Assembly: GCA_022842905.1 (NCBI GenBank)
Contig: JALHOS010000001.1
Span: 4,907 to 65,163, forward strand
Source: Myxococcaceae bacterium
Lineage (GTDB): Bacteria; Myxococcota; Myxococcia; Myxococcales; Myxococcaceae
Direction of reading: 5' to 3'
DNA: 60,257 nt
Part shown: one piece after another, positions 1,436-26,091 of the stretch
Numbering within the stretch: position 1 is the stretch's first letter
Layout of the letters: every line of letters begins with the position of its first letter
Notes under the pieces: model-generated
Database searches by the model: none
Seen by the model: only the letters and a program-made list of their open reading frames with translations
Told to the model about the DNA's origin: nothing
Made by a program: the position numbers and the translations under genes

Positions 1436-1520
1436 TCCGGCTGGCCGATCACCGTCCCGCGAGTGGTTGCCCAGAATTCCTACGCGGAATGAGTTCGACC
1501 TCTCGCAGTCGCTGGTGACC

Positions 1521-5071: not shown

Positions 5072-8000
5072 CGTCCTTTCCTCGCTTTCGCGAGGTCAAT
5101 GATGGCGTCGGTGGCCTTCTCGATCTTCGCGTCGTCGTAGCGCGCGGCGCGCAGGTGCTTCTTGATGCGCACGCGCATCTCCCGCTGAACATCGGCCTTC
5201 TGGGTCCAGTCAACGATGCCGGTGTGCGGCGTCACCGCCTCGTCGAGCAGGGACGCCAACTCCTTCGTCGAGGTGTCGTACTCGATGGGCCGCTCGCCCA
5301 CGGACGGAAGGAGGACACCGTAGATGGCGTAGGCCATGTCGTTGAGCCCAGCGTCGCTCGCCGCGTTGGCTTCACCGCGAACCGCGCCCGCCAACTCCTT
5401 GAGCAACTCCAGTTGCTTCGCGGCGTCGATGCGCTTGAGCCGTCGGTCTTCGATGAGCTTCTCCAGCCGCTCGCGCAGGGAGGCGTAGAAGGCCGGGTTC
5501 TCCTCAAGCCGGACGTGAATCTCGTGCTTGATGGCGTGCTCCATCTCTGAAGCCCTCGCCTCCGGCGTCCGCAGCTTCTCGACTTTCTCATCGAAGTCCT
5601 TCGAGAAGATGGAGATCTCCTTCACCAGAAGTTCGATGCCGTCGGCGACGACGGCTTCCTCGATGAGCTTCCGCACCTTCTCGCCGCAGTCGGAGATGTC
5701 GAAGGTGTCGTCGCGGAACCGCGCCTTCGCCGCCGAGCGAATCTTCCCGAGCCACTTGAGGTCGGAGACGTAACGCAGCGCGCTCGGATCCGGCAGGAGC
5801 ATGTCGAGCGACTCGGAGAACTTCCTGAATGCATCGTCGAACTCGGCGCGCACGTCGTCGGGCTCCAGCACCGCGACGCAGTCGTTGAGGTCGTCCTTCT
5901 TCTTCACCTTGGCGAAGAACCCCATCGCGCGCGCATGACGGGTCTGGAGCCGGGGCAGTTCGTCGGCCTTCGGCGTCATCGCCCCCTTCACGTCGGAGGG
6001 TGAGAAGATGACGAGGGCGTCTTGCAGGGACTCGCTGATGCCCCAGTAGTCCACCACGAGGCCGAAGGTCTTCCGGTCGGCCTTGCGGTTCACGCGCGCG
6101 ATGGCCTGAAGCAGCGTGTGCTCGCGCAGCGGCGAGTCGAGGTACATGACCTGCTCAACGGGCGCGTCGAACCCGGTGATGAGCATGTCGCAGACAACGA
6201 GGATGCTGAGGGGGTCTTCCTCCTTCAGGAACCGCTCGATGAGCTGAACCTTCTCCTCCTTCGTGCGCCGGTATGGCTCGAACCGCTTGTCGTCGTTGTG
6301 CCCGACGGAGATGACGACGGCCGACTCCGGGCCGTTGAGCTTGTCGAGCATCTCCTTGTAGGTGATGGCCGCCTCGCGGCTGACCGCCACCACCTGCGCC
6401 TTGAAGGCGTTCGGCTGGATGAACTTCCGGTAGTGGTCGATTAGGTCGAGGCAGATGGTCTCGATGCGCTTCGGAGCTTCCGCCACCGCCTGCTCGGTCG
6501 CGTACTTCTTCTTGATGGCCTCGCGTTCTTCTTCTGAGCGGTCGGCGAACACGGCGTCGAAGACCTTGTCGAGGGTCTGCCCGACGATGCGGACCTGCGG
6601 AAGCCGCGACTCGTAGAAGATGGGCACGGTGGCGTCGTCGGCGACGGCCTGCTCGATGGTGTACGTGTCGATGTAGCTGCCGAAGATGCGCGGCGTGCTC
6701 CTGTCGTTCTTGTCGATGGGCGTGCCCGAGAAGCCCAAGAAGCAGGCGTTGGGGAGCGCCTTGCGCATGTTGGCGGCGAGGCTGGCGTACTGAGTGCGGT
6801 GGGCCTCATCGACGAGCACGAAGATGTTGTCAGCGGTGGAGAGTTCGGGGTGCTCGGCGCGCTCCTTGCGGTCGCCGGACCCGGTCTCGGCCACCTCTTG
6901 GAATTTCTGCACGGTCGTCATCACCGTGCGTCCGGTCGCGCCGGTCAGCAACTCACGAAGGCCCCTGACGCTCTTCGCCTTCTCGGGATTCGGGAACCCG
7001 CAGTTCGCGAACGTCTTGGAAATCTGCGTGTCGAGGTCGATGCGGTCGGTGACGATGACGATAGTGGGGTTGTCGAGCGAGCGCGCGCGCCGGAGCTTCA
7101 AGGCGAGCCACAGCATGGTCAGCGACTTGCCGCTGCCCTGCGTGTGCCAGATGATGCCGCCGCGAGCGGTGGGCTCCTTGGCTACGTCGATGCGCTCCAG
7201 CGCCTTGTTCACCGCGCGGAACTGCTGGTAGCGGCAAACCTTCCGCACGGTCTTCCCGCGCTCCGACTCGAACACGGTGAAGTTGCGCGTGATGTCGAGC
7301 AGGTTCTTCGGCTCAAGGAGGCCGTAGAGCAGAACGTCCTGCGCGGACGGCGGGTGGCCGAGTCTCTTCTCCAGCTCCTCCGCCGACACCGGGTACGGCT
7401 GCTTCCACTCGGCGTAGAACCGCTGGGGCGTCAGCACCGTCCCGTACTTCGCCGCCTGCCCGCAGCAGGTGATGACGAGCTGGACGGTCTCGAAGAGCTT
7501 GGGCGCGCCCATCCCTTTGAACTCGGAGGCGGCCTCTTGGTAGCGCAGCACCTGCCGCGCCGCCTCCTCGAACCACTTGTCGCCCAGCGTCGGCGACTTG
7601 CACTCGATGACGGCGAGCGGGATGCCGTTCACGAAGACGACGATGTCCGGGATGATGTTCTTCTTGCCGCCGAGCACTGCGAACTGGCGCGTGACGAGAA
7701 GGTCGTTTGCAGACGGGCTCTCGTAGTCGATGAAACGAACGGTCTGGCCCTTCTTTCCGGCCCCAACGTCCTGCTCGACGCTCCAGCCGTGCGTCAGCAT
7801 TGTGTGGAGCTTCTCGCTGGCGTCGAGCAGCCCGGAGGCGGCGATGTTGGTGACCGCGCGCAGGGCCTTCGACACGTTGTCGTCGGAGATCCACGGATTC
7901 AGCTTCTTCAGCGCCGCTGCTAGCCGCTTAGTCAGAACGGCATCGCGTGTGCTGTCGCGCTCGACATCGAGGCTATCGGCGGGAGCGATGGTGTAGCCAA

Positions 8001-8073
8001 GGCGCTCAAGTGCGGTAGCGGCGGGCCGCTCGGCTTGGTGTTCTTCGTTCCATTCGAGCGTGGCGGGGCTCAC
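5068..8073 (-). CDS. hsdR: Type I restriction enzyme, motor/endonuclease subunit HsdR
   Basis: The 1001-residue subunit has the expected order of domains. The nuclease site is PDIV...VIECKS (Asp143, Glu157, Lys159). The superfamily 2 translocase follows with Walker A HTQGSGKS (310-317), DEAH at 422-425, and downstream helicase motifs including SGTPI and QAIARVNRKA. In the HsdR2M2S complex it translocates DNA by ATP hydrolysis and cuts far from the recognition site. The GTG start overlaps the hsdS stop by 4 bases. Length is normal for the family and no frameshift is seen, so the enzyme looks functional. It is the third gene of the minus-strand operon hsdM-hsdS-hsdR-AlbA_2-YgjP. Confidence 0.95.
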   Translation of the reverse strand: MSPATLEWNEEHQAERPAATALERLGYTIAPADSLDVERDSTRDAVLTKRLAAALKKLNPWISDDNVSKALRAVTNIAASGLLDASEKLHTMLTHGWSVEQDVGAGKKGQTVRFIDYESPSANDLLVTRQFAVLGGKKNIIPDIVVFVNGIPLAVIECKSPTLGDKWFEEAARQVLRYQEAASEFKGMGAPKLFETVQLVITCCGQAAKYGTVLTPQRFYAEWKQPYPVSAEELEKRLGHPPSAQDVLLYGLLEPKNLLDITRNFTVFESERGKTVRKVCRYQQFRAVNKALERIDVAKEPTARGGIIWHTQGSGKSLTMLWLALKLRRARSLDNPTIVIVTDRIDLDTQISKTFANCGFPNPEKAKSVRGLRELLTGATGRTVMTTVQKFQEVAETGSGDRKERAEHPELSTADNIFVLVDEAHRTQYASLAANMRKALPNACFLGFSGTPIDKNDRSTPRIFGSYIDTYTIEQAVADDATVPIFYESRLPQVRIVGQTLDKVFDAVFADRSEEEREAIKKKYATEQAVAEAPKRIETICLDLIDHYRKFIQPNAFKAQVVAVSREAAITYKEMLDKLNGPESAVVISVGHNDDKRFEPYRRTKEEKVQLIERFLKEEDPLSILVVCDMLITGFDAPVEQVMYLDSPLREHTLLQAIARVNRKADRKTFGLVVDYWGISESLQDALVIFSPSDVKGAMTPKADELPRLQTRHARAMGFFAKVKKKDDLNDCVAVLEPDDVRAEFDDAFRKFSESLDMLLPDPSALRYVSDLKWLGKIRSAAKARFRDDTFDISDCGEKVRKLIEEAVVADGIELLVKEISIFSKDFDEKVEKLRTPEARASEMEHAIKHEIHVRLEENPAFYASLRERLEKLIEDRRLKRIDAAKQLELLKELAGAVRGEANAASDAGLNDMAYAIYGVLLPSVGERPIEYDTSTKELASLLDEAVTPHTGIVDWTQKADVQREMRVRIKKHLRAARYDDAKIEKATDAIIDLAKARKGR

Positions 8074-9317
8074 GCAGCAGCCCCAGTCGTGTTGGGGGCA
8101 CCAGACTGACCCGCGAGCAGCGCATCCAAGAGAGCGCGCTTCACGGCCTTCAGTTCGTCAAGCGTGGCCTCCTCAGCAAAGAGCCGGAAATCCATATCCT
8201 TCAGACACGCGGCTATTGCTCGCTGCTCCGGCATGGGCGGCACGGGAATCTTCAGGCTCTTGAAGTAGGGGAGCCCAATGGTCTTGATGGTGCTGCCAAC
8301 GGCGATTCTCTCGAACTCGGGCTTTCTTGCCTGAAGCCAGTAGTAGAGGAAGTGGTTGTCGAGGAGAGGTCCACACTTCCACGCCATGAAATGCTGGCTC
8401 ACTGCCATCACGTCGGTTGTGATCGCACTCTTCCCAACTCCCGCGTCTCGCGACAGCACGACGGTTCCGACAGGGTGCTCAACGGCCGACGAGTTTGCGA
8501 TCCCCAGCGGGGTTGTCTTGGCGGCCGTGTCAGAAATGTAGAGGCGGTCGAGGTGGGAACAGTCCTTGAGCGATAACCACTTGATTGATCCCCCCCAGTA
8601 CTCCGGGTGCTTCTTGTCGGGGGTGTGGCCGCTGCCGCGCTCGGCGACACTGCCGAGCAATTCCAAGCGCCACATAGTGGGCATTCGCCCGCTTTCCGTG
8701 TCCTGAAACTCTGTATGCCGCCCCGGAAGACCTTGGGTCAGCAACTGAGTCATCACCGCCCAACGCACCTCCTTCGTTTGAGCGATGACCGATTCGGTCT
8801 TTGAGACCGCGTCATCAACAGCTCCGAGCACTGCGGCGATTCGCCGTTGTTCATTCAGCGGCGGCACCGCAACCTCAAGGCCACTGAACGACTCCCAATC
8901 GGTCTTCTTTCGTTTTCCGTGTTGGTTCCCGCCCTGAGTTGCTCGCGTGAAGGCAGCCTGCATTCGGGGACTCTTCACGAGGAACCAGAAGTACGACGGG
9001 TCGATCCCTTCCCTCAGTCGAAACGTGATGTACGCGGGGCTCACAAGTCCAGCAGGCACCCGCCGCTGCCAACCAATCGCTCCGTAATAGAGCGACATCG
9101 GGTCGTAAACGAAGTCACCGTGCCTACAGATTTTGTACCTCGTAACGTCGGTCGCGATGCGCTTGTTGAACTTCTCCGATTGAAGAACAACGCCAACATC
9201 CTTCGTAACCGACAGTGGGGGAAGATCCGCGCCAGCAGCGTTGATCTCCTTGAACTGAGCGCAGAGTTGGCCCAACGAGGCTGTGGACCAGCCCTGCTCT
9301 GGGCTACGCATACCCAA
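8070..9317 (-). CDS. hsdS: Type I restriction-modification specificity subunit HsdS
   Basis: The 415-residue protein has the two-part layout of HsdS. Each half is a variable target-recognition domain followed by a conserved helical spacer. The first spacer begins PPLNEQRRIAAVLG and the second PPMPEQRAIAACLKD. The second recognition domain opens with a typical GSGHTPDKKHPEYWGG stretch. HsdS sets the bipartite DNA sequence recognised by both methylase and restriction complexes. It overlaps the end of hsdM by 14 bases and the start of hsdR by 4. Both halves are complete, so a two-part recognition sequence is expected; it cannot be read from the protein alone. Confidence 0.93.
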   Translation of the reverse strand: MGMRSPEQGWSTASLGQLCAQFKEINAAGADLPPLSVTKDVGVVLQSEKFNKRIATDVTRYKICRHGDFVYDPMSLYYGAIGWQRRVPAGLVSPAYITFRLREGIDPSYFWFLVKSPRMQAAFTRATQGGNQHGKRKKTDWESFSGLEVAVPPLNEQRRIAAVLGAVDDAVSKTESVIAQTKEVRWAVMTQLLTQGLPGRHTEFQDTESGRMPTMWRLELLGSVAERGSGHTPDKKHPEYWGGSIKWLSLKDCSHLDRLYISDTAAKTTPLGIANSSAVEHPVGTVVLSRDAGVGKSAITTDVMAVSQHFMAWKCGPLLDNHFLYYWLQARKPEFERIAVGSTIKTIGLPYFKSLKIPVPPMPEQRAIAACLKDMDFRLFAEEATLDELKAVKRALLDALLAGQSGAPNTTGAAA

Positions 9318-11148
9318 GCTCCTTCAAGTGGGCGTTCATCCGTGCTTCTGCTGCGGCGCGTTCGGCCTCCAGCACGCGTAACCGCCGAACTGCTGCGGCG
9401 ACATCGACGGCCGCTTCGGACTCGGTCGCATCGACAAACCGACTGATGTTGATGTTGAAGTCGTTCTTTTCAATCTCCTCAATGGAGACCACGCGCGCGT
9501 ACCCTTCCGAGTCGGCGAATGCCCGGAACGTGGCGGCGATCCTGTTCACGTCCTCGTCGCGCAGGAAGTTCTGGGCGGTGCCGTCCATGAACTCACGGGA
9601 GGCGTCGATAAAGAGCACCTGCCTTTTGCGAAGCTTCGCGCGGTTGAGCACCAGCACGGCGGCCGGGATGCCAGTTCCATAGAAAAGGTTCGATGGCAGC
9701 CCGATGACGGCCTCCACGAGGTCATCCGTAACGAGTCCCTTGCGAATGTCCCGTTCGCTCCCGCCGCGAAAGAGGACGCCGTGGGGCATGACTACAGCTA
9801 GCTGGCCGGTGGCATTCAACGTCGCGACCATGTGCTGCACGAACGCAAGGTCGCCTTTCGACTTTGGAGGCACGCCATAGCGGAACCGACCGAATCCGTC
9901 GTGTTCGGCAACCTCGACGCCCCACTCGTCGAGCGAGAACGGAGGGTTTGCTATCACTCGGTCATAGAGGATGAGCCCGCCGTCCTTCACGAGCTTCGGG
10001 TCGCGGATGGTGTCGCCCTTCTCGATGCGGGCGTCGGTGAGGCCGTGGAGCAGCAGGTTCATCTTCGCGATGGCCCACGTCCCGAGGTTCTTCTCCTGAC
10101 CGTGGTACGTGAGGTTCTTCGCGTTGCCGCCGTGCTTCCGCACGTAATGCGCGCACTCAACCAACATGCCGCCTGAGCCGCAGGTCGGGTCGCAGATGCG
10201 CATCCCTTCATTGGGAGCGAGCAACTCGACGATGAGCTGTACGACCTTGCGGGGCGTGTAGAACTCGCCGCCCTTTTTTCCGGCGTCATCGGCGAACTTC
10301 TCGATGAGGTACTCGTAGGCCCTCCCGAGCATGTCCGGCTCGGACAGCGACGAGTTCCGCAGGTTCACCTTCGAGAAGTGCAGCACCAACTTGGAGAGCA
10401 CGGTGTCGCGGTTCTTCGCGTCGCCCAGCCTCCGCTCGTCGTTGTAGTCAATCTGCGCGAGCAGCCCCTCCAGCGACTCGTTCTTCTCCTCCAGCGCCGC
10501 GCACGCCTTGTTCAGCGCCTCGCCGATGCCGGTGGAGACCTTCTGAAGCTCTGACCACCGCGCGCGCGTCGGCACGAAGAACTGGTGCTGGTCCTCGTCG
10601 CTCCACGCAACCTTCTCCGACTCGCCCGCCGCGACGAGCTTCTCGGCCTCCTCCTCGAAGACGTCGGAGAGCCGCTTCAGGAACAGCAGCCCGAAAATGA
10701 AGCCCTTGTAGTCCGACGAGTCGATGCTGCCTCGAAGGATGTCAGCGGCGCTCCAGAGGTAGCGTTCGAGCTGGTCCACGGTGAGCTTGCCGTTTGCGGT
10801 GAGTTCCCCCGTGGGCGGCGCGACATCGTTCTTCGCCGTCACCTTGGCGACGGGAGCCGCCACGTCACCGCCGAGAATGCGAGCGATGAGGACGTCCTTC
10901 TCCTTGCCGGAGCGGTCGAGTTCGAGCGCTTCGCAGATGCCCTGAAGCTCCTCCCGCCTGAGCAGACCCAACACCTCGGAGAAATCCACCGAGCGCGAGC
11001 GAACGAGGGCGTCAACGTGCTGTTCGAGCACTCGACGGTCCCCGACTTCGAGGTCGAAGTGCTCGGTTAGGGAGGAGAGGCGGTCACGAGCGAGAGTCGC
11101 AAGGGCCTGACGGCGGATCTTCGACGGGAGGATGTCCGGCTTCGACAT
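9304..11148 (-). CDS. hsdM: Type I DNA adenine methyltransferase subunit HsdM
   Basis: The 614-residue subunit contains the N6-adenine methylase motifs: DPTCGSGGML (from residue 320) for S-adenosylmethionine binding and the catalytic NPPF at 401-404. An HsdM N-terminal helical domain (about 121-260) precedes them. It is longer than the usual roughly 500 residues because of an N-terminal extension of about 110 residues. Within this, 61-92 (LRREELQGICEALEL...) looks like a SAP-type DNA-binding helix pair. With HsdS it forms the methylase that protects host DNA. It is the first gene of the operon, starting about 240 bases from the divergent gene pair at 12.4 kb, with a small same-strand gene in between. 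Confidence 0.95.
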   Translation of the reverse strand: MSKPDILPSKIRRQALATLARDRLSSLTEHFDLEVGDRRVLEQHVDALVRSRSVDFSEVLGLLRREELQGICEALELDRSGKEKDVLIARILGGDVAAPVAKVTAKNDVAPPTGELTANGKLTVDQLERYLWSAADILRGSIDSSDYKGFIFGLLFLKRLSDVFEEEAEKLVAAGESEKVAWSDEDQHQFFVPTRARWSELQKVSTGIGEALNKACAALEEKNESLEGLLAQIDYNDERRLGDAKNRDTVLSKLVLHFSKVNLRNSSLSEPDMLGRAYEYLIEKFADDAGKKGGEFYTPRKVVQLIVELLAPNEGMRICDPTCGSGGMLVECAHYVRKHGGNAKNLTYHGQEKNLGTWAIAKMNLLLHGLTDARIEKGDTIRDPKLVKDGGLILYDRVIANPPFSLDEWGVEVAEHDGFGRFRYGVPPKSKGDLAFVQHMVATLNATGQLAVVMPHGVLFRGGSERDIRKGLVTDDLVEAVIGLPSNLFYGTGIPAAVLVLNRAKLRKRQVLFIDASREFMDGTAQNFLRDEDVNRIAATFRAFADSEGYARVVSIEEIEKNDFNINISRFVDATESEAAVDVAAAVRRLRVLEAERAAAEARMNAHLKELGYA

Positions 11149-14582: not shown

Positions 14583-15221
14583 TCAGGCAGCACGCTTCCG
14601 AGTGGAGCCGCTGGTCGATTTCGGCGGGGGATTTTGCGCCACCGCTGCGAGCGCCCGCTCCAGCGTGCGGCGCGGCACCTTCATCGACACCGCGCAGTCG
14701 CGCCACGAGAGGCCCTGCGCCCGCAGTGCTGCGAGCCGAGCGAGGTCCACCTCGCGCCGAGGTCGCCCCAGTGGACGGCCTGACCTGCTCTGGCCGGTGG
14801 TCTTCACCTTCGAGATGCCCGCCGCGATGCGCTGCCGGATGAGCGACCGCTCGAACTCGGCGAGGGCGCCGAAGATGGCGGTCATCAACTTGCCGGTCGG
14901 GGTGGTGAGGTCGATGCCCTCCCTCAGCACGATGACCGCGCACGCTCCGGCCGCCAGCTCGTCGAGCAGGAGCAGCAGGTGACGAAGGTCTCTGGCCAGT
15001 CGCGACAGCTCGGTCGCCATCACCTCGGTCACCTCGCCGCGCTTCACGGCCGCGCGCAGCTCGTCGAGCGCGGGCCGCGACGCCTTGCCTCCCGACTGGC
15101 CAAGGTCGATGAACTCCTTCACGTCACTCCAGCCGCGAGCCTTCGCCGCCAGCCGGAGCTGGTGGAGCTGTGCAGCACCGTCAGCGTCGCTGACGCTAGT
15201 TCGGACGTAGATCGCTTTCAC
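14583..15221 (-). CDS. Serine recombinase (resolvase/invertase type)
   Basis: The 212-residue protein has the resolvase catalytic domain. It starts MKAIYVRTS, with Ser9 as the nucleophile and Arg7 beside it. ELSRLARDLRHLL at about residues 70-82 holds the conserved Ser/Arg motif, and EGIDLTTPTGKLMTAIFGALAEFERS is the long-helix entry. GRPLGRPRR and a C-terminal helix-turn-helix (LSWRDCAVSMKVPRRTLERAL) complete it. Length and layout are standard for small serine recombinases that resolve dimers or invert short segments. It is the last of five genes on the minus strand, each overlapping the next by 4 bases, so it is probably made with the inactive relative at 16364-16987. It appears catalytically intact. 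Confidence 0.85.
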   Translation of the reverse strand: MKAIYVRTSVSDADGAAQLHQLRLAAKARGWSDVKEFIDLGQSGGKASRPALDELRAAVKRGEVTEVMATELSRLARDLRHLLLLLDELAAGACAVIVLREGIDLTTPTGKLMTAIFGALAEFERSLIRQRIAAGISKVKTTGQSRSGRPLGRPRREVDLARLAALRAQGLSWRDCAVSMKVPRRTLERALAAVAQNPPPKSTSGSTRKRAA

Positions 15222-15571
15222 CCCCGCCTCCGCGAACGTCGCTCATGGGCGACACGCCGGAGTTCACGCTGGGCCTCCCCCTGCCGCTTCTCGGCGCTCC
15301 ACTCCGCGACGGCGGTGCCGCCGTCCCCCAAGGAGCGGTTGAAGTGCTCGACCAGCTCAGCGGCGTCTTTGCTGCCGTTGAGGGCCTGCGCGCACGCCTT
15401 GAGCCGTGTCCCGATGAGGTTCAGCAGGGCGGACGCGGACCTTGGAAGCTGACGCGCGGCCTCGTCGTCTGACACGGCGTTGGTTGCCAGCATGTCCGTC
15501 AGCAGCCGCACCCCATCGACCGCTGCTCGGATTTCGCCGACCTCGGCGCCCACATCGAGGGTCTTCTTCAT
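15218..15571 (-). CDS. Small helical hypothetical protein in recombinase operon
   Basis: The 117-residue product begins MKKTLDVGAEVGEIRAAVDG and is all-helical by appearance, with a basic tail (ERRSRRRG). I recognise no family. The start at 15571 overlaps the upstream stop as ATGA, and its own stop overlaps the recombinase start the same way, so it is translationally coupled to both. The basic tail may contact DNA or the recombinase, but that is a guess. It has no homologue elsewhere in the window. Confidence 0.6.
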   Translation of the reverse strand: MKKTLDVGAEVGEIRAAVDGVRLLTDMLATNAVSDDEAARQLPRSASALLNLIGTRLKACAQALNGSKDAAELVEHFNRSLGDGGTAVAEWSAEKRQGEAQRELRRVAHERRSRRRG

Positions 15572-16104
15572 TGCGCCTCCCAAGGCGAGCGACCCGCTGC
15601 ACGCAGCGCCGCTCGGCGTCGCTGGAGGTCGCGGTGAGCCACGAGATGCTCCTGCGCCCGGCTGATGGTGATTTCTTCATCCGGCGCCGTCAGGGTGTCG
15701 GGGAAGACCGCCCGGACGCGGTCCACCGCCTCGGATGACTTCAGGCCGGAGCCCAGAAGCATGGCCGCCGCCGTCAAGGAGACGGAGACTGGCCTGAGGC
15801 ACGCAACATCGAGCGGGAACCCCTGCTGGAGCTTCTCCGCGCCCCAATGAGCGACGGGAGCTAGGTCGAGGGAGAATGCGGGCAGGTGGTCGCAGCGGAC
15901 GCTGGAGAGCCATCCACGGCGTCCAAGGGCCTTCTCAAAGCAGAGGTTGGCCCCCGGTTCCTCGAATAGGTCGTCGGTCGAGGCGACCACCATCAACCGC
16001 ACGTCGCTGCCCGCGTAGGCGTCGAGGCGGACGTCCCCAAGACGCCAAATGCCGAAGACCCGGAGTCGCACGCCACCAACATCGAGTTCGATGGCTGCGT
16101 TCAT
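15568..16104 (-). CDS. Hypothetical protein in recombinase operon
   Basis: The 178-residue protein starts MNAAIELDVGGVRLRVFGIW and has a mixed beta N-terminal half (RLDAYAGSDVRLMVVAS) and a helical C-terminal half ending in a basic QRRRAALRAAGR stretch. No family is recognised. I chose the ATG at 16104 because it overlaps the preceding stop by 4 bases; the frame is open 35 residues further upstream but that part reads as low-complexity shadow of the next gene. Third of the five coupled genes, so expected to act with them. Confidence 0.6.
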   Translation of the reverse strand: MNAAIELDVGGVRLRVFGIWRLGDVRLDAYAGSDVRLMVVASTDDLFEEPGANLCFEKALGRRGWLSSVRCDHLPAFSLDLAPVAHWGAEKLQQGFPLDVACLRPVSVSLTAAAMLLGSGLKSSEAVDRVRAVFPDTLTAPDEEITISRAQEHLVAHRDLQRRRAALRAAGRSPWEAQ

Positions 16105-16367
16105 GCCCTCGCCGCCTTCATGATGAGCACGGCCGGTCCGGATTTCAGGCGTGGGAGCCGCTTGCGGACGACCCGCTGGAGCTGCGCCAGCATCACCGAC
16201 GGAGGGCAACTCCCGGCCTCAGCGAGGTCGAAGGCCAGCTCCACGAGGGCGCGTACCGCCCGGCAGAGTGATGTCGCGTCCTGCGGCGGGTCGAGGTCGC
16301 AGATGGCCCTTACGAGCGGCGGGGTGAGCGCCGCCTGAATCTGCTTCCTCGTTGGGGCCTTCCTCAT
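16101..16367 (-). CDS. Small helical hypothetical protein in recombinase operon
   Basis: This is an 88-residue product beginning MRKAPTRKQIQAALTPPLV, with two or three amphipathic helices and a basic segment VVRKRLPRLKSG. It contains no recognised domain. The ATG at 16367 overlaps the stop of the inactive recombinase gene (ATGA), and its stop overlaps the next start. Such a small basic protein could be an accessory factor for recombination, but nothing in the sequence proves it. The frame is open further upstream; that part is opposite the neighbouring gene and is not needed. Confidence 0.55.
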   Translation of the reverse strand: MRKAPTRKQIQAALTPPLVRAICDLDPPQDATSLCRAVRALVELAFDLAEAGSCPPSVMLAQLQRVVRKRLPRLKSGPAVLIMKAARA

Positions 16368-16987
16368 GTCGTCCTCCGAGCGGGCGCGACGGGGAGAAGT
16401 CCGGCGCGAGCGAGTGCCCTTCTGATGGAGGCGGCGGAGACGCCGACCTTCTTCGCCCCGCTGCGCCAACCGAACTGCTCGACGAGCCGCCGCGCTTCAT
16501 CGGGTGAGACGGGCAGTGGTCGGGAGGGGCGGCCGACCTTCGCCCCCGCCTGCCTCACGCTGGCAATGACTGTGCGGCCCTGCCGTGAAGCCCGCCGCTG
16601 CTGGTCGGCGGACAGGTACACCGAGATGGCGACGACCGTGTGGGGGTCCACCGTGGCGGTCCAACAGTCGGCAAGGCTCACGAGCCGAATCCCAGCGGTC
16701 ATCAGCGCCCCAGCGATGCCGAGCGCGGTCGTCGCGCTGGGGTGGAGAGCCGCGAGCGAGGCGACCACCACCGTCGAGGCGCCCGCGTTGAGCACCTCGG
16801 AGACCAGCGCCTCGGCTGCCCCCGACCTGCGCCCGCGCCCTCGGACAACGAGGCACTGACCGCCGCCGTGGGTGGCAGCGGCATCGACAAGACGTCGGTC
16901 ACCGCCTCGACGACGCCCCGTCACCACCAAGGCAACCTTGGGGACCGCTACCCCCTGCGCCAACTGGATTCTGGGAATTGCGGCCAT
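16364..16987 (-). CDS. Catalytically inactive serine-recombinase-like protein
   Basis: The 207-residue protein follows the resolvase fold: VALVVTGRRRGG at the position of the catalytic strand, VVVASLAALHPSATTALGIA where active enzymes have the SRLxR motif, IRLVSLADCWTATVDPHTVV, an SADQQRRASRQGR helix, KVGRPSRPL, and a C-terminal helix-turn-helix (GAKKVGVSAASIRRALARAG). The catalytic serine and its neighbouring arginine are missing: the usual YxRxS reads VVTG. It therefore cannot cut DNA by the known mechanism but may still bind it through the HTH. It is the first gene of the five-gene operon that ends with an intact serine recombinase (14583-15221), so a regulatory or architectural partner is a reasonable guess. 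Confidence 0.7.
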   Translation of the reverse strand: MAAIPRIQLAQGVAVPKVALVVTGRRRGGDRRLVDAAATHGGGQCLVVRGRGRRSGAAEALVSEVLNAGASTVVVASLAALHPSATTALGIAGALMTAGIRLVSLADCWTATVDPHTVVAISVYLSADQQRRASRQGRTVIASVRQAGAKVGRPSRPLPVSPDEARRLVEQFGWRSGAKKVGVSAASIRRALARAGLLPVAPARRTT

Positions 16988-17080
16988 GTGATAGCATGAT
17001 AGTACATCGCATTTAGCAGGTGGGATAGCGATGGTCAGTCATAGTTGAATCAATAGGATACGAGCCGGAGGACGATGTTC
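16988..17080. promoter_or_regulatory. AT-rich divergent control region
   Basis: This gap separates the recombinase operon (minus strand) from the small gene at 17081 (plus strand). It is clearly richer in A and T than its surroundings and contains the close direct repeat TGATAGCATGATAGTAC and a GTTGAATCAATAGGATAC stretch ending 8 bases before the GGAGG ribosome-binding site of the right-hand gene. Promoters for both directions must lie here. Because a serine recombinase is encoded alongside, a recombination (res-like) site in the same gap is possible; I cannot define one. Confidence 0.4.
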
Positions 17081-17329
17081 ATGCCCAAGCGAACAGGCGT
17101 AAGGGACCGGCCCGACCCACAGCTCTTCTCGTTGAGGCTTCCACGGCGACTCTGGGCTGAGCTGGGTGTGCTCGCGCGCCTCCGAGGGGTGCCGCTCAAC
17201 GAACTCCTCGTCGGCGTCCTACAGGCCTACTGGGACACGCAGCCCGAGAAGGCGGCCGTCGCCCCGCTAGTCGAGGCGTCGGGCACGCTGAGCCCTCGCG
17301 CACGAGACAAGGCCGGAAAACCTGAGTAG
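17081..17329 (+). CDS. Small ribbon-helix-helix-like protein
   Basis: The 82-residue protein begins MPKRTGVRDRPDPQLFSLRL. It continues PRRLWAELGVLARLRGVPLNELLVGVLQAYWD, that is, one strand followed by two helices, as in Arc/MetJ-type ribbon-helix-helix regulators. Such proteins bind operators as dimers. GGAGG at 17067-17071 sits 9 bases before the ATG at 17081 and only 3 before the alternative at 17075, so the later start is chosen. It is divergent from the five-gene recombinase operon and could be its repressor. No toxin-like partner follows it. Confidence 0.6.
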   Translation: MPKRTGVRDRPDPQLFSLRLPRRLWAELGVLARLRGVPLNELLVGVLQAYWDTQPEKAAVAPLVEASGTLSPRARDKAGKPE

Positions 17330-17354: not shown

Positions 17355-17789
17355 TCAGAGGTGCTGCACGTCGAGGTCGCCCCACTTCTGCTTGAGGTAC
17401 TCGACTACGAGACGGCGGTGGCAGTGATGCGGCTTGTCCTCGCTGCACAAGAGGCAGGCGCCTTCGAGTGATGCGCGAGGAATCGTCTGCTCGATGCGCC
17501 GCTCAGCCATGAGCGCGAGGAAGCGCTTCTCGTAGTCGCCCCAGTCACCGCCGTCCTTCTTGTAGCCGTCCAGCATTGGCTGCGTCGGCGCCAGCACCGG
17601 CTCGTGGGCGTACTCGATGCCGCCGATGGCTTTGAGGAAGTAGCGGAGGTCTTCCTTCTTGGCGAACCCGGCAAGCTGAGAGACGTTGTTCAACCTGACG
17701 TCGAGCACCTTCTTCACTCCCGCCTTCTGGAGCCTGCCGAAGAAGCCCTCCGCAGTGGTCTTGGTGAAGCCGATGGTGAAGACCTTCAC
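17355..17789 (-). CDS. DUF488 family protein (second copy)
   Basis: The 144-residue protein shows the DUF488 pattern: MKVFTIGFTKTTAEGFFGRL at the front, VLDVRLNN, a central YFLKAIGGIEY, and the closing ACLLCSEDKPHHCHRRLV with the conserved Cys and CH pair. Biochemical function is not established for the family. The GTG start overlaps the stop of the upstream DUF488 gene (GTGA), so the two are coupled. With the dual-OB-like gene at 18409-19110 it makes a three-gene set that occurs in genomic islands; a role in sensing or handling nucleic acid has been suggested for such sets, which I recall but cannot verify here. Confidence 0.85.
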   Translation of the reverse strand: MKVFTIGFTKTTAEGFFGRLQKAGVKKVLDVRLNNVSQLAGFAKKEDLRYFLKAIGGIEYAHEPVLAPTQPMLDGYKKDGGDWGDYEKRFLALMAERRIEQTIPRASLEGACLLCSEDKPHHCHRRLVVEYLKQKWGDLDVQHL

Positions 17790-18409
17790 GGTGCGAACCG
17801 CTCCGCCCCTGAGTCACCCACCGTGGCGGGCTTTTCGACGTAGGCGATCTCGTTCCCGCGCTTCGTATACGCCTCGTCCACCAGCTCCTGCCGGGGCTTG
17901 AAGAAGTCGTCACCTCGGACACCGACCTCCTTCAGCAGACGGTCGAGCGCATCCTCGTGCGGTTCGAGACGGCCATCCTCGCGGATGTGAGCGGCTCGAA
18001 GGCCCCGCGCAACGAGGTGGCGGACGACGAGAATCGTTCGGTGGCAGGTCAACGGGTCCTTCTCCGCGCACAGGAGCGCGATCCGGTAACGAGCGGCCCC
18101 CTGCTCGACCCGAGTAAGCCCTTCCTGAAAGAGGGCGCTCTTTGCGAGGCGGTCGTACTGGACCTTTCCATCGACGTAGCAGCTCCGGTCTTCGCTGCGA
18201 GCACCAAGCTCGCGGCCGAGGAAGACGTAGGAGATCCCCGCGCCCTTAAGGGCGTCCTTGAGGGGCTCGCGGTTGAACTGGGGGTTCATGCGCGAGTACG
18301 GCTGCGAGCGCACGTCGGCGACCGCCGTGATCTCATTGCGACGGAGAAGCTCGATGAGCTTGGCCGACGAGTGGGTGGAGTGCCCGATCGTGAAGACGAC
18401 CGCGCCCAT
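17786..18409 (-). CDS. DUF488 family protein (first copy)
   Basis: This is a longer DUF488 member of 207 residues: VVFTIGHSTHSSAKLIELL, VADVRSQPYSRMNPQFNRE, GISYVFLGRELG and the conserved IALLCAEKDPLTCHRTILV with its paired cysteines. A C-terminal extension of about 70 residues (ENGRLEPHE-like region, then KPRQELVDEAYTKRG) goes beyond the core fold. Start choice: the ATG at 18409 overlaps the upstream stop as TGATG; a GTG at 18412 is also possible. Two DUF488 proteins of different length in tandem suggest a heterodimer. Function unknown. Confidence 0.85.
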   Translation of the reverse strand: MGAVVFTIGHSTHSSAKLIELLRRNEITAVADVRSQPYSRMNPQFNREPLKDALKGAGISYVFLGRELGARSEDRSCYVDGKVQYDRLAKSALFQEGLTRVEQGAARYRIALLCAEKDPLTCHRTILVVRHLVARGLRAAHIREDGRLEPHEDALDRLLKEVGVRGDDFFKPRQELVDEAYTKRGNEIAYVEKPATVGDSGAERFAP

Positions 18410-19110
18410 CACGTCCCCCCAGCACGCTCAGGCGTGATGACGGCGGCGGCCAACTTGTAGACATACCCGTTGAAGCCCTCTCCGAGGCTCACGCAGAGCA
18501 GCGCGCGAGGGGTCGGGTAGCTGCCATCAGCAAGGGCCAGATACTGGCGCTCGATGGGCGGGTCGGTGACGCCGAAACGGTAGCTGACGCCGTTCAGACT
18601 GAACTCCGCCCGAAGCCTGCGCCGACTCGGGTACATCCCGTTGTCCTCGATCCGAACGACCAGAACGAGGTTCTCGGGTCGAACGAGGTAGAGCGAGCGC
18701 GAGATACCGCCAAGCTGGCCCTCGGGCACTTGGTCATTCAGCCCATGCCGCGTCGAGAAGCCGTTCACCCACAGTGGACCCTGCGGGCTGTCAACCGCAG
18801 GTTGCAGCTCCTCCCAAGAGGCCTGCCCGGTCTTCACCCAGTAGTACCCCGCGTCCAGCTCGTGATTCTCCTGTTGGTGGTCGTGGGGCACCGGTTGCTT
18901 CATAGTGATCGAGATGATGTCGAGCACCTTCGGGTCGGTGCCGTCCTCGTAGCGCCGCTCTTCCTCGGACACCTCTCGTGTCGGCCGCTCACTCACTGGC
19001 CGGACCCAGTCGCCGTACCCACCCGCCCGATGCTCTCTTCCGGCGATGCAACGCCCCGAAGGCGGCTTGCGCGAGTTGGCGAGGCAGACGATGTCTTTCG
19101 TGTAGCTCAC
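18409..19110 (-). CDS. Dual-OB-like domain protein of the DUF488 cluster
   Basis: The 233-residue product begins (V)SYTKDIVCLANSRKP and continues PPSGRCIAGREH, GDWVRPVSERPTREVSEEER, DIISITMKQPVPHDHQQEN and LWVNGFSTRHGLNDQVPE. This layout matches proteins I know as dual OB-fold domain proteins that accompany DUF488 genes. A GTG start at 19110 is chosen because AGGAG lies 7 bases before it; the frame also offers an ATG nine codons upstream. First gene of the set of three, coupled to the DUF488 genes by overlapping stop and start. Probably nucleic-acid binding by fold; no activity is shown. Confidence 0.65.
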   Translation of the reverse strand: MSYTKDIVCLANSRKPPSGRCIAGREHRAGGYGDWVRPVSERPTREVSEEERRYEDGTDPKVLDIISITMKQPVPHDHQQENHELDAGYYWVKTGQASWEELQPAVDSPQGPLWVNGFSTRHGLNDQVPEGQLGGISRSLYLVRPENLVLVVRIEDNGMYPSRRRLRAEFSLNGVSYRFGVTDPPIERQYLALADGSYPTPRALLCVSLGEGFNGYVYKLAAAVITPERAGGT

Positions 19111-19167
19111 GAGGTGGCTCCTACCAGCAGCGTACACGAGACCGCCACCGAGAGCAGGTAGCCTCAG

Positions 19168-20555: not shown

Positions 20556-20625
20556 CAGCAAGGTCGCGCGAGCAACGCCGAGAAGCACAAGGCAGGAGCA
20601 CTTGGGTGCTCCCGAACGGAGAGCC

Positions 20626-22518
20626 ATGTCCTACGAACGCAGAGCTGGAGCTGGACCCGATGAACGTGTGCCAGACATTCTCGCGGTGGCGCGAGCGGCC
20701 GGGTTGGCGCCGACACATGACTACGGTGATGAGTGGCTGGTGACGTGTCCGTTGCCGGGTCACGACGAAGACGAACACCCGAGCTGCTCCCTCAACGCCG
20801 CGACGCAGGAGTTCAACTGCTTCGTGTGCGAGCGTGGTGGCGGCTCGCCGGAGTTCGCACGCATCCTGAAGCAGGAGCATGTCCCCGTCGTCCCGGTTGC
20901 AGGCTCGCCTGCGGCGAAGAAGCCGTCGAAGGCCAGTCAGTGCAACGCGGCTCGCATCTGGGAACTGCTCTCGACGCAGGACCTTCGGGGGCGGAGGGCG
21001 CTCAACAGGAGGTGGCTTCGCACTGCGCCCGAGGTGGATCTGGCAAAGTTCCTGACCGAGGACTTCGCTGGCATCAGCACCGCGACAGACAACTACCTGC
21101 GCTGGTTGGCTCGGGTGGGATTCCGCGTCGCAGTACCGATGCAGGACGTGAGCGGGAAGACGGTGGCGCTCGCGCTCAGGAACGTCGATCGAGATGCTCG
21201 CCCCAAGGTGCGGTTCTTGGGCACCCCGGCGAAGGCGTTCTTCGGGATGCCGCGCAACGTCGTTCGTCATCGGCGGGCTCTCTTGGTCGAGGGCCTCACC
21301 GACTACCTCACGGCGAGTCTCGTGTTCATCGACGACACGGAGACGACGGTCATCGGCTTCAACTCGACGGGCGGCTTCGACGAGGAAGCACTGGCCAAGG
21401 TCTTCCGCGACTTCGAGGGAGAGCTTTTTCTCTTCCCGCACAACGATGGGGCCGGAATGCGCCTGATGGCGAAGGCCGCGAACGCGCTCACCGACATGAA
21501 GCGGCGTTGGCGCTGGGTGTCCCCGCTGGTTGAGACGAAGGGTGGCGACCTCTCAGACCTGCTCGCGCAAGAGAAGGGCGACTACGACGAGTACTACGAC
21601 GAGTACTACGTCAAGGTGGCGGAGGCGATGGCGGCGGCCTTGCCGCAGTTGACGCCTGAGGTCGCTTCCTTGATGGCGACCAGAGCCCCTGAACGTGACC
21701 GCACCAGCCCACCTGCGCCTGAGTGGGTGGGGGAGCCCCCCGCCTTCTGCCCGCCGCCCACGACGGCGCTGGTCTCCCGTCAGCTCCTTGGTGAGGTCGC
21801 AGCGATTCTTGATGCCTCCACCGCTCGACGGCGAGCTGCGCTCGCTTCGCGACCAGCAAAGGCTGCGACCCCTGCGCCCAGCGCTGCCGATGCCAGCACG
21901 CAGGACAGGACGAAGGGCGAGCGACCTCGGCCTCGTGTGGCAGCGGATGCCCTTCTCGGTCTCCAGCTCGACACCGCCCTCAGGTTCATGGACCGAGGCA
22001 AAGGCGCGTTCGCAGGGCCGGAGTACCTGACGAAGAAGCTGAAGGTGTCTCCGACTCGCCTGCACGCAGCGGCCAAGTGGCTCGCGGCGCGAGGTGTCAG
22101 CAGGACAACTCCCACCTCAAGCGACGGCCGGAGGCACTGGCAGGTCGCGAAGCCCATCACGGATAAGGAGGCGACGTGCGACTACGTGCCCGTGCCGTCG
22201 GCGGCCGTCTTCGAGTTGAAGCCGCTCGACTTCTTCGTGCTCGCAACCCTCCACGACCTGCACGAGCTTGCCTGCGGCGGCGACGCCAAGGACCACCGGA
22301 GAGAGCTGCTGCCCCGCACGGGGTACATGAACATGCCCATGGCCACCATCTTGTCGGTGATGCCCATGGGGCCGAAGCGGGCAACGGCGTGCCTCCTTCG
22401 ACTGGAGGAGAAGCGGTACTTCAGCGCGAAGGTTCGCAAGCTCTCGCCCCCCATCAGCACCAACCCGCTGGGAGGGCTCCGGCGAAAGCCGTCAGCGACG
22501 CCCGAGGAGTCGCCATGA
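20626..22518 (+). CDS. CHC2 zinc-finger/Toprim DNA primase of mobile element
   Basis: The 630-residue protein starts with a DnaG-type zinc finger (Cys41, His46, Cys65, Cys68). It continues with a Toprim domain containing LLVEGLTDYLTA (Glu222, Asp226) and FLFPHNDGAGMR (Asp274). The usual first Asp of the Toprim DxD pair reads His272 here. The last third (about 430-630) is a helical DNA-binding or adaptor region with a winged-helix look (KVSPTRLHAAAKWLAARGVS). It would synthesise primers for the element's own replication. GGAGAG precedes the ATG at 20626. A TTG upstream at 20602 is less likely. The iteron-like array lies downstream. Confidence 0.82.
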   Translation: MSYERRAGAGPDERVPDILAVARAAGLAPTHDYGDEWLVTCPLPGHDEDEHPSCSLNAATQEFNCFVCERGGGSPEFARILKQEHVPVVPVAGSPAAKKPSKASQCNAARIWELLSTQDLRGRRALNRRWLRTAPEVDLAKFLTEDFAGISTATDNYLRWLARVGFRVAVPMQDVSGKTVALALRNVDRDARPKVRFLGTPAKAFFGMPRNVVRHRRALLVEGLTDYLTASLVFIDDTETTVIGFNSTGGFDEEALAKVFRDFEGELFLFPHNDGAGMRLMAKAANALTDMKRRWRWVSPLVETKGGDLSDLLAQEKGDYDEYYDEYYVKVAEAMAAALPQLTPEVASLMATRAPERDRTSPPAPEWVGEPPAFCPPPTTALVSRQLLGEVAAILDASTARRRAALASRPAKAATPAPSAADASTQDRTKGERPRPRVAADALLGLQLDTALRFMDRGKGAFAGPEYLTKKLKVSPTRLHAAAKWLAARGVSRTTPTSSDGRRHWQVAKPITDKEATCDYVPVPSAAVFELKPLDFFVLATLHDLHELACGGDAKDHRRELLPRTGYMNMPMATILSVMPMGPKRATACLLRLEEKRYFSAKVRKLSPPISTNPLGGLRRKPSATPEESP

Positions 22519-23201: not shown

Positions 23202-24086
23202 ATGAGAACCGGAGACGCGAAGTACGTGCAGTTGAAGTGCAGCTCTTGTGGTCGCGGCGGGAAGCTCGCCCCGGCAGAGGACGTGAACCCCTTCGCCAAG
23301 GTTGGGGACGAGGTGGCGTGGGAGACCGCATGCCCATCGTGTGAAGTGAAGGGAGCACGATTCGAGATCGAGGCCTTTCACGACTCCGACCCGAACGCCA
23401 AGGCGATTGCCCTCTATGCGTCCGGCCCGACCCGGAGGCGCATCGACGAGAAGTTGGCCGCGCTCCGTGATGTGGCTGCTGCGGAGGGTGTCGTCGTGCG
23501 CGAGTACAGAGATGTCGCCTCTGCCAGTTCCGCGCGGAGCGGCCTCTCAGAACTGATCGCCGCCGCCGAGGAAGCCGAGTTCGAGACCGTGCTGGTGATG
23601 AGCTACGGCGAACTCGGGAAGGACCTCGTCTCGATTCGTTCCGTCGTGAACGACCTCGGTCGCAACGGCGTGAATGTCACCTCGCCGGACGGCTTCTTGG
23701 TGAGCAGGAACGAGGACTGCCCGGTGCTCTCACCCGGACTCAAGGCGATCGACCCTGAGGACGCGGAGGCGTTGGCCGAGACGTGCGGCGCAATCGCGGC
23801 GGCACGCATTCGAGCCGAGCACCCAGACGAGTACGAAACGATGGAGGAGCAGGTGCTCGACGAACTGGGTGACGAACTCGCGATGTTCTTCCCTGCCGGG
23901 GCCTACGCCTCGGATGACAGCTCGAACTTGCCCTGTCCTGAGGGCCACTTCCTCGACGGTGTCGCGATGCTGACCCCCGGCCAGTTCATTGAGGATCTCG
24001 AACCGCACTTCTGGCGGGGCTTCCGCGCCGAGGTGATCGCAGCCGCGAGTCTCGGCAAACCCCGCGTCGCTGGGCGCGGCTCCTGA
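23202..24086 (+). CDS. Zinc-ribbon protein with inactive serine-recombinase-like domain
   Basis: In this 294-residue protein, residues 10-50 form a zinc ribbon (Cys13, Cys16, Cys44, Cys47). From about 66 to 165 the sequence tracks the resolvase catalytic fold: AIALYASGPTRRR, VVVREYRDVASASSARSGL, FETVLVMSYGELGKDLVS, and GVNVTSPDG. The catalytic Arg and Ser of the YARVS motif are replaced (YASGP), so strand cleavage is not expected. The last 120 residues are acidic and helical and match nothing I know. It lies between the origin-like region and the excisionase-like gene, so a role in replication or recombination of the element is plausible. Gene certain, function inferred from fold. Confidence 0.7.
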   Translation: MRTGDAKYVQLKCSSCGRGGKLAPAEDVNPFAKVGDEVAWETACPSCEVKGARFEIEAFHDSDPNAKAIALYASGPTRRRIDEKLAALRDVAAAEGVVVREYRDVASASSARSGLSELIAAAEEAEFETVLVMSYGELGKDLVSIRSVVNDLGRNGVNVTSPDGFLVSRNEDCPVLSPGLKAIDPEDAEALAETCGAIAAARIRAEHPDEYETMEEQVLDELGDELAMFFPAGAYASDDSSNLPCPEGHFLDGVAMLTPGQFIEDLEPHFWRGFRAEVIAAASLGKPRVAGRGS

Positions 24087-24370: not shown

Positions 24371-24739
24371 ATGAAAGCAGACAATGGGTCTTCCCCGACG
24401 GGGAAGACAGATGGGCAGAGCCATGTCGAGCGGGAAGCTGACTCCGCTCGTCGCGACAATCCTCAACGCCGGGAGACGGTCAGGAAGCCACTCGGCGCGC
24501 AGGCGGACGAGGTTCCGGGAAAGTCGGCACCTGAAGGCGGCACTGAGCTTCCGAATCTTCTCTGCACGCCGAAGGAAGCCGCAGCGTTCCTGCGTTTGAC
24601 GCTGAAGGCGCTCTACGGGCGACGGGCTCGCGGCCAGATCAAGTCGGTGACGATCGGGCGAAGCATCAGGTTCCGTCGGACTGACCTGCTAGCGTTCGTT
24701 GCCGAAGGGCGTGCGCCGTCGCCGAGGAGATCTCGATGA
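24371..24739 (+). CDS. Excisionase-like helix-turn-helix protein
   Basis: The 122-residue protein has a disordered, charged N-terminal half and a C-terminal HTH_17/excisionase-type domain: LLCTPKEAAAFLRLTLKALY, then GRRARGQIKSVTIGRSIRF, then RRTDLLAFVAEG. This is the MerR-like winged helix of Xis and AlpA-type factors that steer integrase towards excision. A GAGGAGA ribosome-binding site ends 9 bases before the ATG at 24371. Its stop overlaps the integrase start (ATGA), the classic xis-int layout. The element can therefore probably excise. Confidence 0.8.
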   Translation: MKADNGSSPTGKTDGQSHVEREADSARRDNPQRRETVRKPLGAQADEVPGKSAPEGGTELPNLLCTPKEAAAFLRLTLKALYGRRARGQIKSVTIGRSIRFRRTDLLAFVAEGRAPSPRRSR

Positions 24740-25926
24740 CGGTCTACATCAGGCCTTACGTGGTGGCCGTGAACCACGTCAAAGACTGCGCCAAACGCAG
24801 GTGCAGTCCGGATTGCAAACGCGTCACTGAAGGCTGGGAGGTGGACGTCGTGTTGACCCTGCCCGACGGCGAGGAACTCCGGGAGCGAAGGAAGAGCCCG
24901 GTTACCTCGAAGGCGGGCTCCAAGTTCTGGGCGGAGCAGCGGGAGGGTGAGCTGCTGCGAAACGGGAAGAAGCGCGCCGATGCACTGATTCCGACGCTGA
25001 AGGAGTTCGTGCCCCGGTACATCGAGGAGTTCTGCGTCGCCAACAAGCAGAAACCCAGCACCATCGAGAGCAAGCAGGCGACTTTCGATGGGCGATTGCT
25101 GCCGCTGCTTGGTGGGCTCCGTCTCGACGAGATCGGCGAGGAACAGGTTCAACGCGTCAAGGCCGACATGAAGGACTGCAAGCCGAAGACGATCAACAAC
25201 GTGCTCTGCATTCTCTCCAAGGCCCTGAAGGTGGCGATCAAGTGGAAGAAGAGCACTGGTCTCACCGCCATGCCCGTTCAGATTGAACCGCTGAAAGGAG
25301 CTGGGGCCGAGGTCCGGTTCTACGAGTTCGAGGAGTACGCGCGGCTCGTGGAGGCGGCGGAGAAGCTCGATCTCCGCTCGCTGGTGTTGGTCCTCCTTGG
25401 TGGCGATGCCGGTCTCCGCACCGGGGAGATCATCGCCTTGGAGTGGTCCGACATCGACTTCCGGCGACGAATCATCATCGTCGGACGGTCGGAGTGGAAC
25501 GGCAACGTGAGCATCCCGAAGAGCAACAAGTCTCGGAAGGTGCCGATGACCGAGAAGCTCACGGCCGCCCTCAAGGCCCTCAAGCACCTCCGTGGGCCTC
25601 GGGTGCTCTACCGGGACGACGGCACTTCGACGTCGAAGCAGACCCTAACGACGTGGATGAAAGCCGCGCAGAGACGGGCTGGGCTGAAGGAGACCGGGAA
25701 CAAGCACATCCTCCGGCACACCTTCTGTTCGCACCTCGCCATGAGGGGAGCCACCGTGCTCGCCATCAAGGAGCTGGCCGGGCACAGCAGCCTCAGCACG
25801 ACGATGAGGTACATGCACCTCAGCCCGGACCACAAGGAGCAGGCCATCCGGCTCCTCGACCAAGCTCGGAATGGTTCTCAGCTTGGAGACATTCTGGAGA
25901 CGGACCGACCGGCCACCCAGCACTAG
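24736..25926 (+). CDS. int: Tyrosine recombinase (integrase)
   Basis: The 396-residue protein has an N-terminal arm-binding part with four cysteines (CAKRRCSPDCKR), a SAM-like core-binding domain (about 85-185), and the catalytic domain. The catalytic residues are visible: Arg in GDAGLRTGEI, HILRHTFCSHLA (His and Arg), LAGHSSLSTTMRYMHLS (His and the Tyr nucleophile). It catalyses site-specific insertion and excision. The gene ends about 90 bases from the 3' end of tRNA-Glu(CTC), which is the likely attachment site. Complete, with no frameshift. Confidence 0.94.
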   Translation: MTVYIRPYVVAVNHVKDCAKRRCSPDCKRVTEGWEVDVVLTLPDGEELRERRKSPVTSKAGSKFWAEQREGELLRNGKKRADALIPTLKEFVPRYIEEFCVANKQKPSTIESKQATFDGRLLPLLGGLRLDEIGEEQVQRVKADMKDCKPKTINNVLCILSKALKVAIKWKKSTGLTAMPVQIEPLKGAGAEVRFYEFEEYARLVEAAEKLDLRSLVLVLLGGDAGLRTGEIIALEWSDIDFRRRIIIVGRSEWNGNVSIPKSNKSRKVPMTEKLTAALKALKHLRGPRVLYRDDGTSTSKQTLTTWMKAAQRRAGLKETGNKHILRHTFCSHLAMRGATVLAIKELAGHSSLSTTMRYMHLSPDHKEQAIRLLDQARNGSQLGDILETDRPATQH

Positions 25927-26018: not shown

Positions 26019-26091
26019 TGACCCTGCCGGGATTCGAACCCGGGTTTATGCCGTGAGAGGGCACCGTCCTAGGCCACTAGACGACAGGGCC
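26019..26091 (-). tRNA. tRNA-Glu (anticodon CTC), insertion site of the element
   Basis: The minus-strand cloverleaf is complete: acceptor stem GGCCCTG with CAGGGTC (one G-U pair), D arm GTCTAGTGGCC, anticodon arm GTGCC-CTCTCAC-GGCAT with anticodon CTC, and T arm CCCGGGTTCGAATCCCGG. The discriminator base is A; CCA is not encoded. The 3' end faces the integrase gene, as expected when an element inserts into a tRNA 3' end and restores it. The partner direct repeat should lie at the left end of the element, outside this window. Confidence 0.93.

Follow-up and report, generated by a model that had tools for sequence, protein, structure and literature searches.

A five-gene operon with a catalytically dead first and an active last serine recombinase in integrative elements of Myxococcaceae

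In a Myxococcaceae genome of 7.85 Mb we found an operon of five genes (G1 to G5 in order of transcription) which begins with a catalytically dead small serine recombinase and ends with an intact one. It lies within the 60,257-nucleotide stretch of DNA analyzed here (the window). The gene order is conserved in related genomes, the genes carry the traces of selection, G1 is dead in three loci, the last gene has been exchanged, and the loci are located in integrative elements. The same last slot is filled by active small serine recombinases that differ in origin. Because the working recombinase has been replaced by other kinds while its companions stayed, these companions may constitute a control kit of general use to an enzyme that rearranges DNA. 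In our estimation there is about an even chance that the operon serves a family of integrative elements as a site-specific recombination (resolvase) module whose accessory proteins are not committed to any one recombinase. No published description of the five-gene set was found in the open-access literature.

The five genes yield uninterrupted minus-strand proteins from translated frames (Table 1), and all four junctions are overlaps of exactly 4 bases, so that every frame and overlap of the initial annotation was reproduced by translation. That annotation also took such tight coupling as a sign of a complex or of fixed stoichiometry, and this part found no support. With a simple gene caller, the start codon stands in the -4 register in 27 of 75 close same-strand gene pairs of the contigs examined, and in 6 of 10 such pairs within the island that harbors the operon. 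Because 4-base overlaps are ordinary in these contigs, four of them alone are weak evidence. Strong evidence that the set is more than a chance assembly comes from the kept gene order and the purifying selection in related genomes.

Table 1. Features of the operon and of its island, in window coordinates.
Feature	Position	Strand	Description
G1	16364..16987	(-)	207 aa; catalytically dead small serine recombinase, C-terminal helix-turn-helix
G2	16101..16367	(-)	88 aa; no family match
G3	15568..16104	(-)	178 aa; predicted protein-tyrosine/dual-specificity phosphatase fold without CX5R
G4	15218..15571	(-)	117 aa, basic tail; unnamed Myxococcota family
G5	14583..15221	(-)	212 aa, GTG start; intact small serine recombinase
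Divergent promoter/operator region	16988..17029		repeat GTGATAGC (16988-16995) / GGGATAGC (17022-17029), 34 bp apart
Divergent RHH-like gene	17075..17329	(+)	weakly matches HicB/CopG/Arc-like (ribbon-helix-helix) proteins; G067 copy 51% identical
Primase-like protein	20602..22518	(+)	CHC2 zinc finger below Pfam cutoff, weak Toprim match
Island tyrosine integrase	24736..25926	(+)	adjoins tRNA
attR	26019..26042		24-bp tRNA-Glu(CTC) 3'-end repeat; second copy at contig C1:79-102, lying 4.8 kb to the left of the window start

The census covered 193-195 Myxococcota genomes (searches of other phyla were less sensitive), which are designated below as G067, G129 and so on. Four loci are known in total, all in Myxococcaceae, since the same order recurs in three further genomes. 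In G067, the MAG Myxococcaceae bacterium SSF41 of the same family as the window genome, the divergent RHH-like gene, G1, G2, G3, and G5 follow in order, G4 is absent, and G3 and G5 are 7 nt apart. The G129 locus has all five genes with a 4-base overlap at every junction. The G188 locus is cut by a contig end and retains the end of G3, G4, and the recombinase, again with 4-base overlaps. Identity of G1 to G4 between loci is 28-56%, against 8-10% for shuffled sequences, and their third codon positions are the most variable; judged from these alignments, G1 to G4 are under purifying selection. The initial annotation had named two findings that would speak against it, namely an order conserved nowhere and middle frames free of purifying selection. 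Both fail, because the order is kept elsewhere and the middle frames are constrained.

How dead is the first recombinase, and how intact is the last? The initial annotation was right on both. In all three G1 homologues (window, G067, G129) the YxRxS and DRxxR motifs have lost the catalytic Ser and the two Arg, while the E-helix and the GRP-HTH region are retained. The Pfam resolvase signal of G1 lies below Pfam's cutoff (E 0.025), and its PHROGs match is phrog_125, "DNA invertase" (E 1e-4); resolvase profile scores are stronger in the homologues from G067 (E 1.2e-7) and G129 (E 2.7e-6). The best AlphaFold model of G1 is middling (pLDDT 77.5, pTM 0.54), and its top Foldseek match is the DNA-bound Sin resolvase 2r0q with E 2e-5 but a TM of only 0.41. 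In a serine recombinase tree, G1 of all three loci falls in a single clade (support 100/99), and the test of a G1 derived from a G5-type gene gave p-AU 0.16. Among the weak matches of G1 in other genomes, those inspected (e.g., in G048) include ordinary active resolvases.

G5 matches Pfam Resolvase with E 7.6e-37 and retains Arg7, Ser9, Arg74, and Arg77; its motifs read YVRTS and SRLAR, the Asp of DRxxR being replaced by Ser. The resolvase alignment reaches residue 189, and the C-terminal HTH_23 match is weak (E 0.03). By resolvase domain, catalytic residues, and size (the group has about 180-220 aa) with HTH it belongs to the small serine recombinases, whereas G1 lacks the catalytic residues. 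G5 resembles invertases (phrog_125, PDB DNA-invertase 4m6f), and its best NCBIfam match is XisF, with E 1.4e-17, far below the cutoff of that family. The G067 copy is 87% identical. Solo myxobacterial resolvases about 60% identical to G5 occur in G048, G070, G076, and G186 with no G1 to G4 beside them. One of them (L048, G070:C60, 4426-6806) immediately precedes hsdM on the same strand, so that it too neighbors a type I restriction system.

The last gene of each of the four loci encodes a small serine recombinase that has kept the catalytic Ser and both motif Arg, and these enzymes fall in three places of the tree. Those of the window and G067 group with the solo resolvases, that of G129 with a recombinase from an E. 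coli plasmid (99/98), and that of G188 with recombinases of G136 and G005 (100/99). A single clade for the last genes of the four loci, G188 included, is rejected (p-AU 8e-101). One clade of G129 with the window and G067, G188 being left out, gave p 0.016, and the long G129 branch makes this placement less sure; the G188 result alone (p 1e-5) implies at least two clades in the last slot. As G1 is one clade and the last genes are not, a serine recombinase has repeatedly been chosen for this slot. Recombinases of different origin in the same slot therefore favor functional dependence and disfavor a specific heteromer of G1 with the recombinase. Such a dead/active heteromer is less likely, since the active gene was replaced by other subfamilies and G1 remained one clade.

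Outside the census the search results were as follows. A pattern-based scan of viral contigs, which is weak for distant relatives, revealed no relatives of G1, G2, G3, or G4 and only distant recombinases for G5. In plasmids there were no relatives of G1 or G3, and the matches of G5 among plasmids and phages were ordinary recombinases. Among GTDB contigs, G1 searched alone had no match and the only match of G5 was SSF41, the same locus as in G067.

The three middle proteins were initially described as belonging to no known family. By sequence this stands for Pfam, PHROGs, NCBIfam, and PADLOC, but it has to be qualified for G3, which has a predicted phosphatase-like fold, and for G4, which belongs to a common unnamed Myxococcota family. 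G2 matched no family in the libraries searched; it is 56% identical to the G067 copy and 40% to the G129 copy. The AlphaFold model of G3, built with three sequences, reached pLDDT 88.5 and pTM 0.85 in two of five models, the other three being poor. Comparison of this model by Foldseek (E 1e-4) and VIA-align (Z 11.4, rmsd 4.0 over 158 residues) gave, among the matches listed, exclusively protein tyrosine/dual-specificity phosphatases or their lipid/glucan phosphatase relatives. SsoPTP, in about the same register, was also among the four weak matches of a PDB profile search, which alone is not significant. Because the CX5R catalytic motif is absent from all three G3 homologues, we read the predicted G3 structure as a phosphatase-like fold without the catalytic motif.

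The G4 family is present in 44 of 193 Myxococcota genomes, mostly as longer proteins, and among the loci inspected its members often lie in integrase-bearing elements. This family (loci L101-L122, L139, and L141, from many genomes of the phylum) recurs in elements with tyrosine integrases and is conserved around ELxEIRxAVxGAxxLA, with APHN also in most members. Some copies have notable close neighbors, a large serine recombinase in L120 and an excisionase-integrase pair in L117. G005 belongs to a different family of the phylum; there, a G4 relative is followed by a 106-aa ORF and then by a small serine recombinase in a comparable operon with 4-base overlaps, and the element around it also carries a tyrosine integrase. 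G4 is not specific to serine recombinases, since its relatives are common in tyrosine-integrase elements with none adjacent.

The operon of the window sits within an island of about 31 kb in tRNA-Glu(CTC), bounded by a 24-bp repeat of the tRNA 3' end. The three well-covered loci (window, G067, G129) are all in elements with tyrosine integrases, and the G129 integrase adjoins a tRNA-Ser gene. On the side of the operon away from the integrase lie three unassigned ORFs, followed by type I restriction genes and a Schlafen/AlbA_2 protein. The defence-like cargo of the window (3015-11148 and 1467-3014) comprises type I restriction, Schlafen/AlbA_2, metallopeptidase-like, and TPR-HEPN proteins; G067 carries a different type I system and the candidate defence protein PDC-S06. 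At window 17355-19137 (-), two DUF488 genes and a gene with a Dual-OB domain succeed each other with 4-base overlaps, and the DUF488 genes share 84% identity with their G067 counterparts, far more than G1 to G3 do. A second degenerate serine recombinase is present near the integrase at 23202-24086 (+), where a Resolvase match (E 2e-8) follows an N-terminal Cys-rich stretch. It appears to lack the catalytic residues, and the examined loci of G067 and G129 have no homologue. At about 4890-4906 of contig C1 (genome G000), immediately before the window begins, the assembly has ambiguous bases (read as X) inside the island.

Between G1 and the divergent RHH-like gene there are 88 bp holding a direct repeat, whose 34-bp spacing is kept in G067; the counterpart in G129 is only about 54 bp long. 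G129 has a divergent 82-aa ORF at the place of the RHH-like gene, equivalent by position. No toxin partner of the RHH-like gene was found. In the 88-bp region no res-like site was found, and no dyad standing out from shuffled sequence. Neither around the operon nor across the first 27 kb of the window was a strong palindrome or long inverted repeat seen, and there was no convincing inverted crossover pair in the same 27 kb, where short degenerate sites could be missed. Comparison of the flanks of G5 with those of its solo relatives gave no shared crossover-like motif, and the window has no second copy of the 3' flank common to it and G067.

Several explanations can be weighed against these data. 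G1 to G4 and the RHH-like gene could be a regulatory or maintenance cassette, the recombinase being a co-transcribed neighbor with an unrelated job. Between the window and G067, the synonymous difference (pS) is 0.62-0.66 for the RHH-like gene, G1, G2, and G3, which are positioned between G5 (0.37) and the DUF488 pair (0.44-0.53). As pS is higher than in the flanks, the RHH-G1-G2-G3(-G4) cassette has a history unlike theirs and its middle part behaves as a separate unit; the G5 relatives without G1 to G4 and the G4 relatives without serine recombinases are consistent with it. Random hitchhiking, however, would bring other genes, and a small serine recombinase is last in all four loci despite its differing clade. 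We regard the separate job as rather unlikely.

A DNA-inversion or phase-variation switch controlling the neighboring defence cargo is improbable: there is one hsdS gene only, no pseudo-hsdS was noticed, paired inverted repeats of the expected kind were not found in 27 kb, and the cargo differs between islands, although G5 is invertase-like and the operon borders core and cargo near type I restriction genes in both the window and G067. Slightly less probable still is an uncharacterized defence or anti-defence system within a defence-rich island. Restriction genes and, in G067, PDC-S06 are its neighbors, yet G2 to G4 have no PADLOC match and the operon is conserved with the mobile-element core rather than with the variable cargo.

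The suggestion of a directed recombination system with accessory factors, made at the outset, thus remains the best-supported reading, although the search for an invertible segment or a res site gave none. Control of small serine recombinases normally lies with additional subunits of the enzyme, bound at accessory sites, or with DNA-bending proteins of the host. In a resolvase module of the kind proposed here, the tyrosine integrase inserts the element into tRNA genes, and the separate last gene would supply the catalytic small serine recombinase, most likely for the resolution of multimers or co-integrates when the element is excised and replicating. G1 probably binds DNA, at an accessory site or at the operon's own promoter, in an architectural or regulatory role such as that of a repressor, since it kept the E-helix and HTH but cannot cut. 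G2 to G4 may be accessory factors serving whichever recombinase holds the last position, because this position was filled from different clades while G1 to G4 were kept. G1 to G4 would act on or with the recombinase, and the product of the divergent RHH-like gene probably regulates its own expression at the promoter region shared with the operon. A more far-reaching proposal, which we rather doubt, is an accessory apparatus independent of the recombinase, composed of the dead G1, a G3 with a phosphatase fold but no catalysis, and the small G2 and G4. It would dock onto interchangeable small serine recombinases, imposing direction, topology, or timing, and mobile elements could then exchange the enzyme and retain its controls.

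The nearest described arrangements, RK2 parCBA/parDE and XisF-XisH-XisI, are comparable in layout. RK2/RP4 parCBA is a small serine recombinase operon with companion genes, a divergent parDE, and a shared autoregulated promoter region (PMC7314908). The likeness consists in a small serine recombinase with companions in an operon and a divergent RHH(-like) gene. ParD is an RHH protein, and we know of no dead paralogue or phosphatase-fold protein in RK2 parCBA. Unlike RK2/RP4, the locus has no res site or toxin partner that we could find, and its element is integrative. The RK2 ParA resolvase, active in multimer resolution, has 222 aa and a 106-bp site (PMC5698047). In the RK2 type, a resolution site of roughly 100 bp lies in the divergent promoter region; the corresponding 88-bp region here has the direct repeat described above and no clear dyad. 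In the Anabaena fdxN element, the serine recombinase XisF needs the extra element-encoded proteins XisH and XisI (PMC4874684), but XisF is a large recombinase, and G2 to G4 are without match in the libraries searched. An SCCmec-type ccr system was rejected, as it needs a large serine recombinase (models of 442-558 aa), while G5 has 212 aa and its CcrB match is far under the cutoff. In the Sin and Tn3 resolvases, the resolvase dimer at site II is architectural while catalytically inactive (PMC2428073); one polypeptide plays both roles there, whereas in our operon the inactive role would fall to a separate gene.

If the proposed reading is true, the pairing of a dead paralogue and three more proteins with a catalytic enzyme that can be exchanged would amount to a new mode of recombination control. 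It would also serve as a natural test of how accessory proteins work when they are not tuned to a single recombinase, and would supply recombinases that can be controlled. In Myxococcaceae, which are soil-type bacteria, the operon is a marker for poorly described tRNA-integrated elements carrying defence genes.
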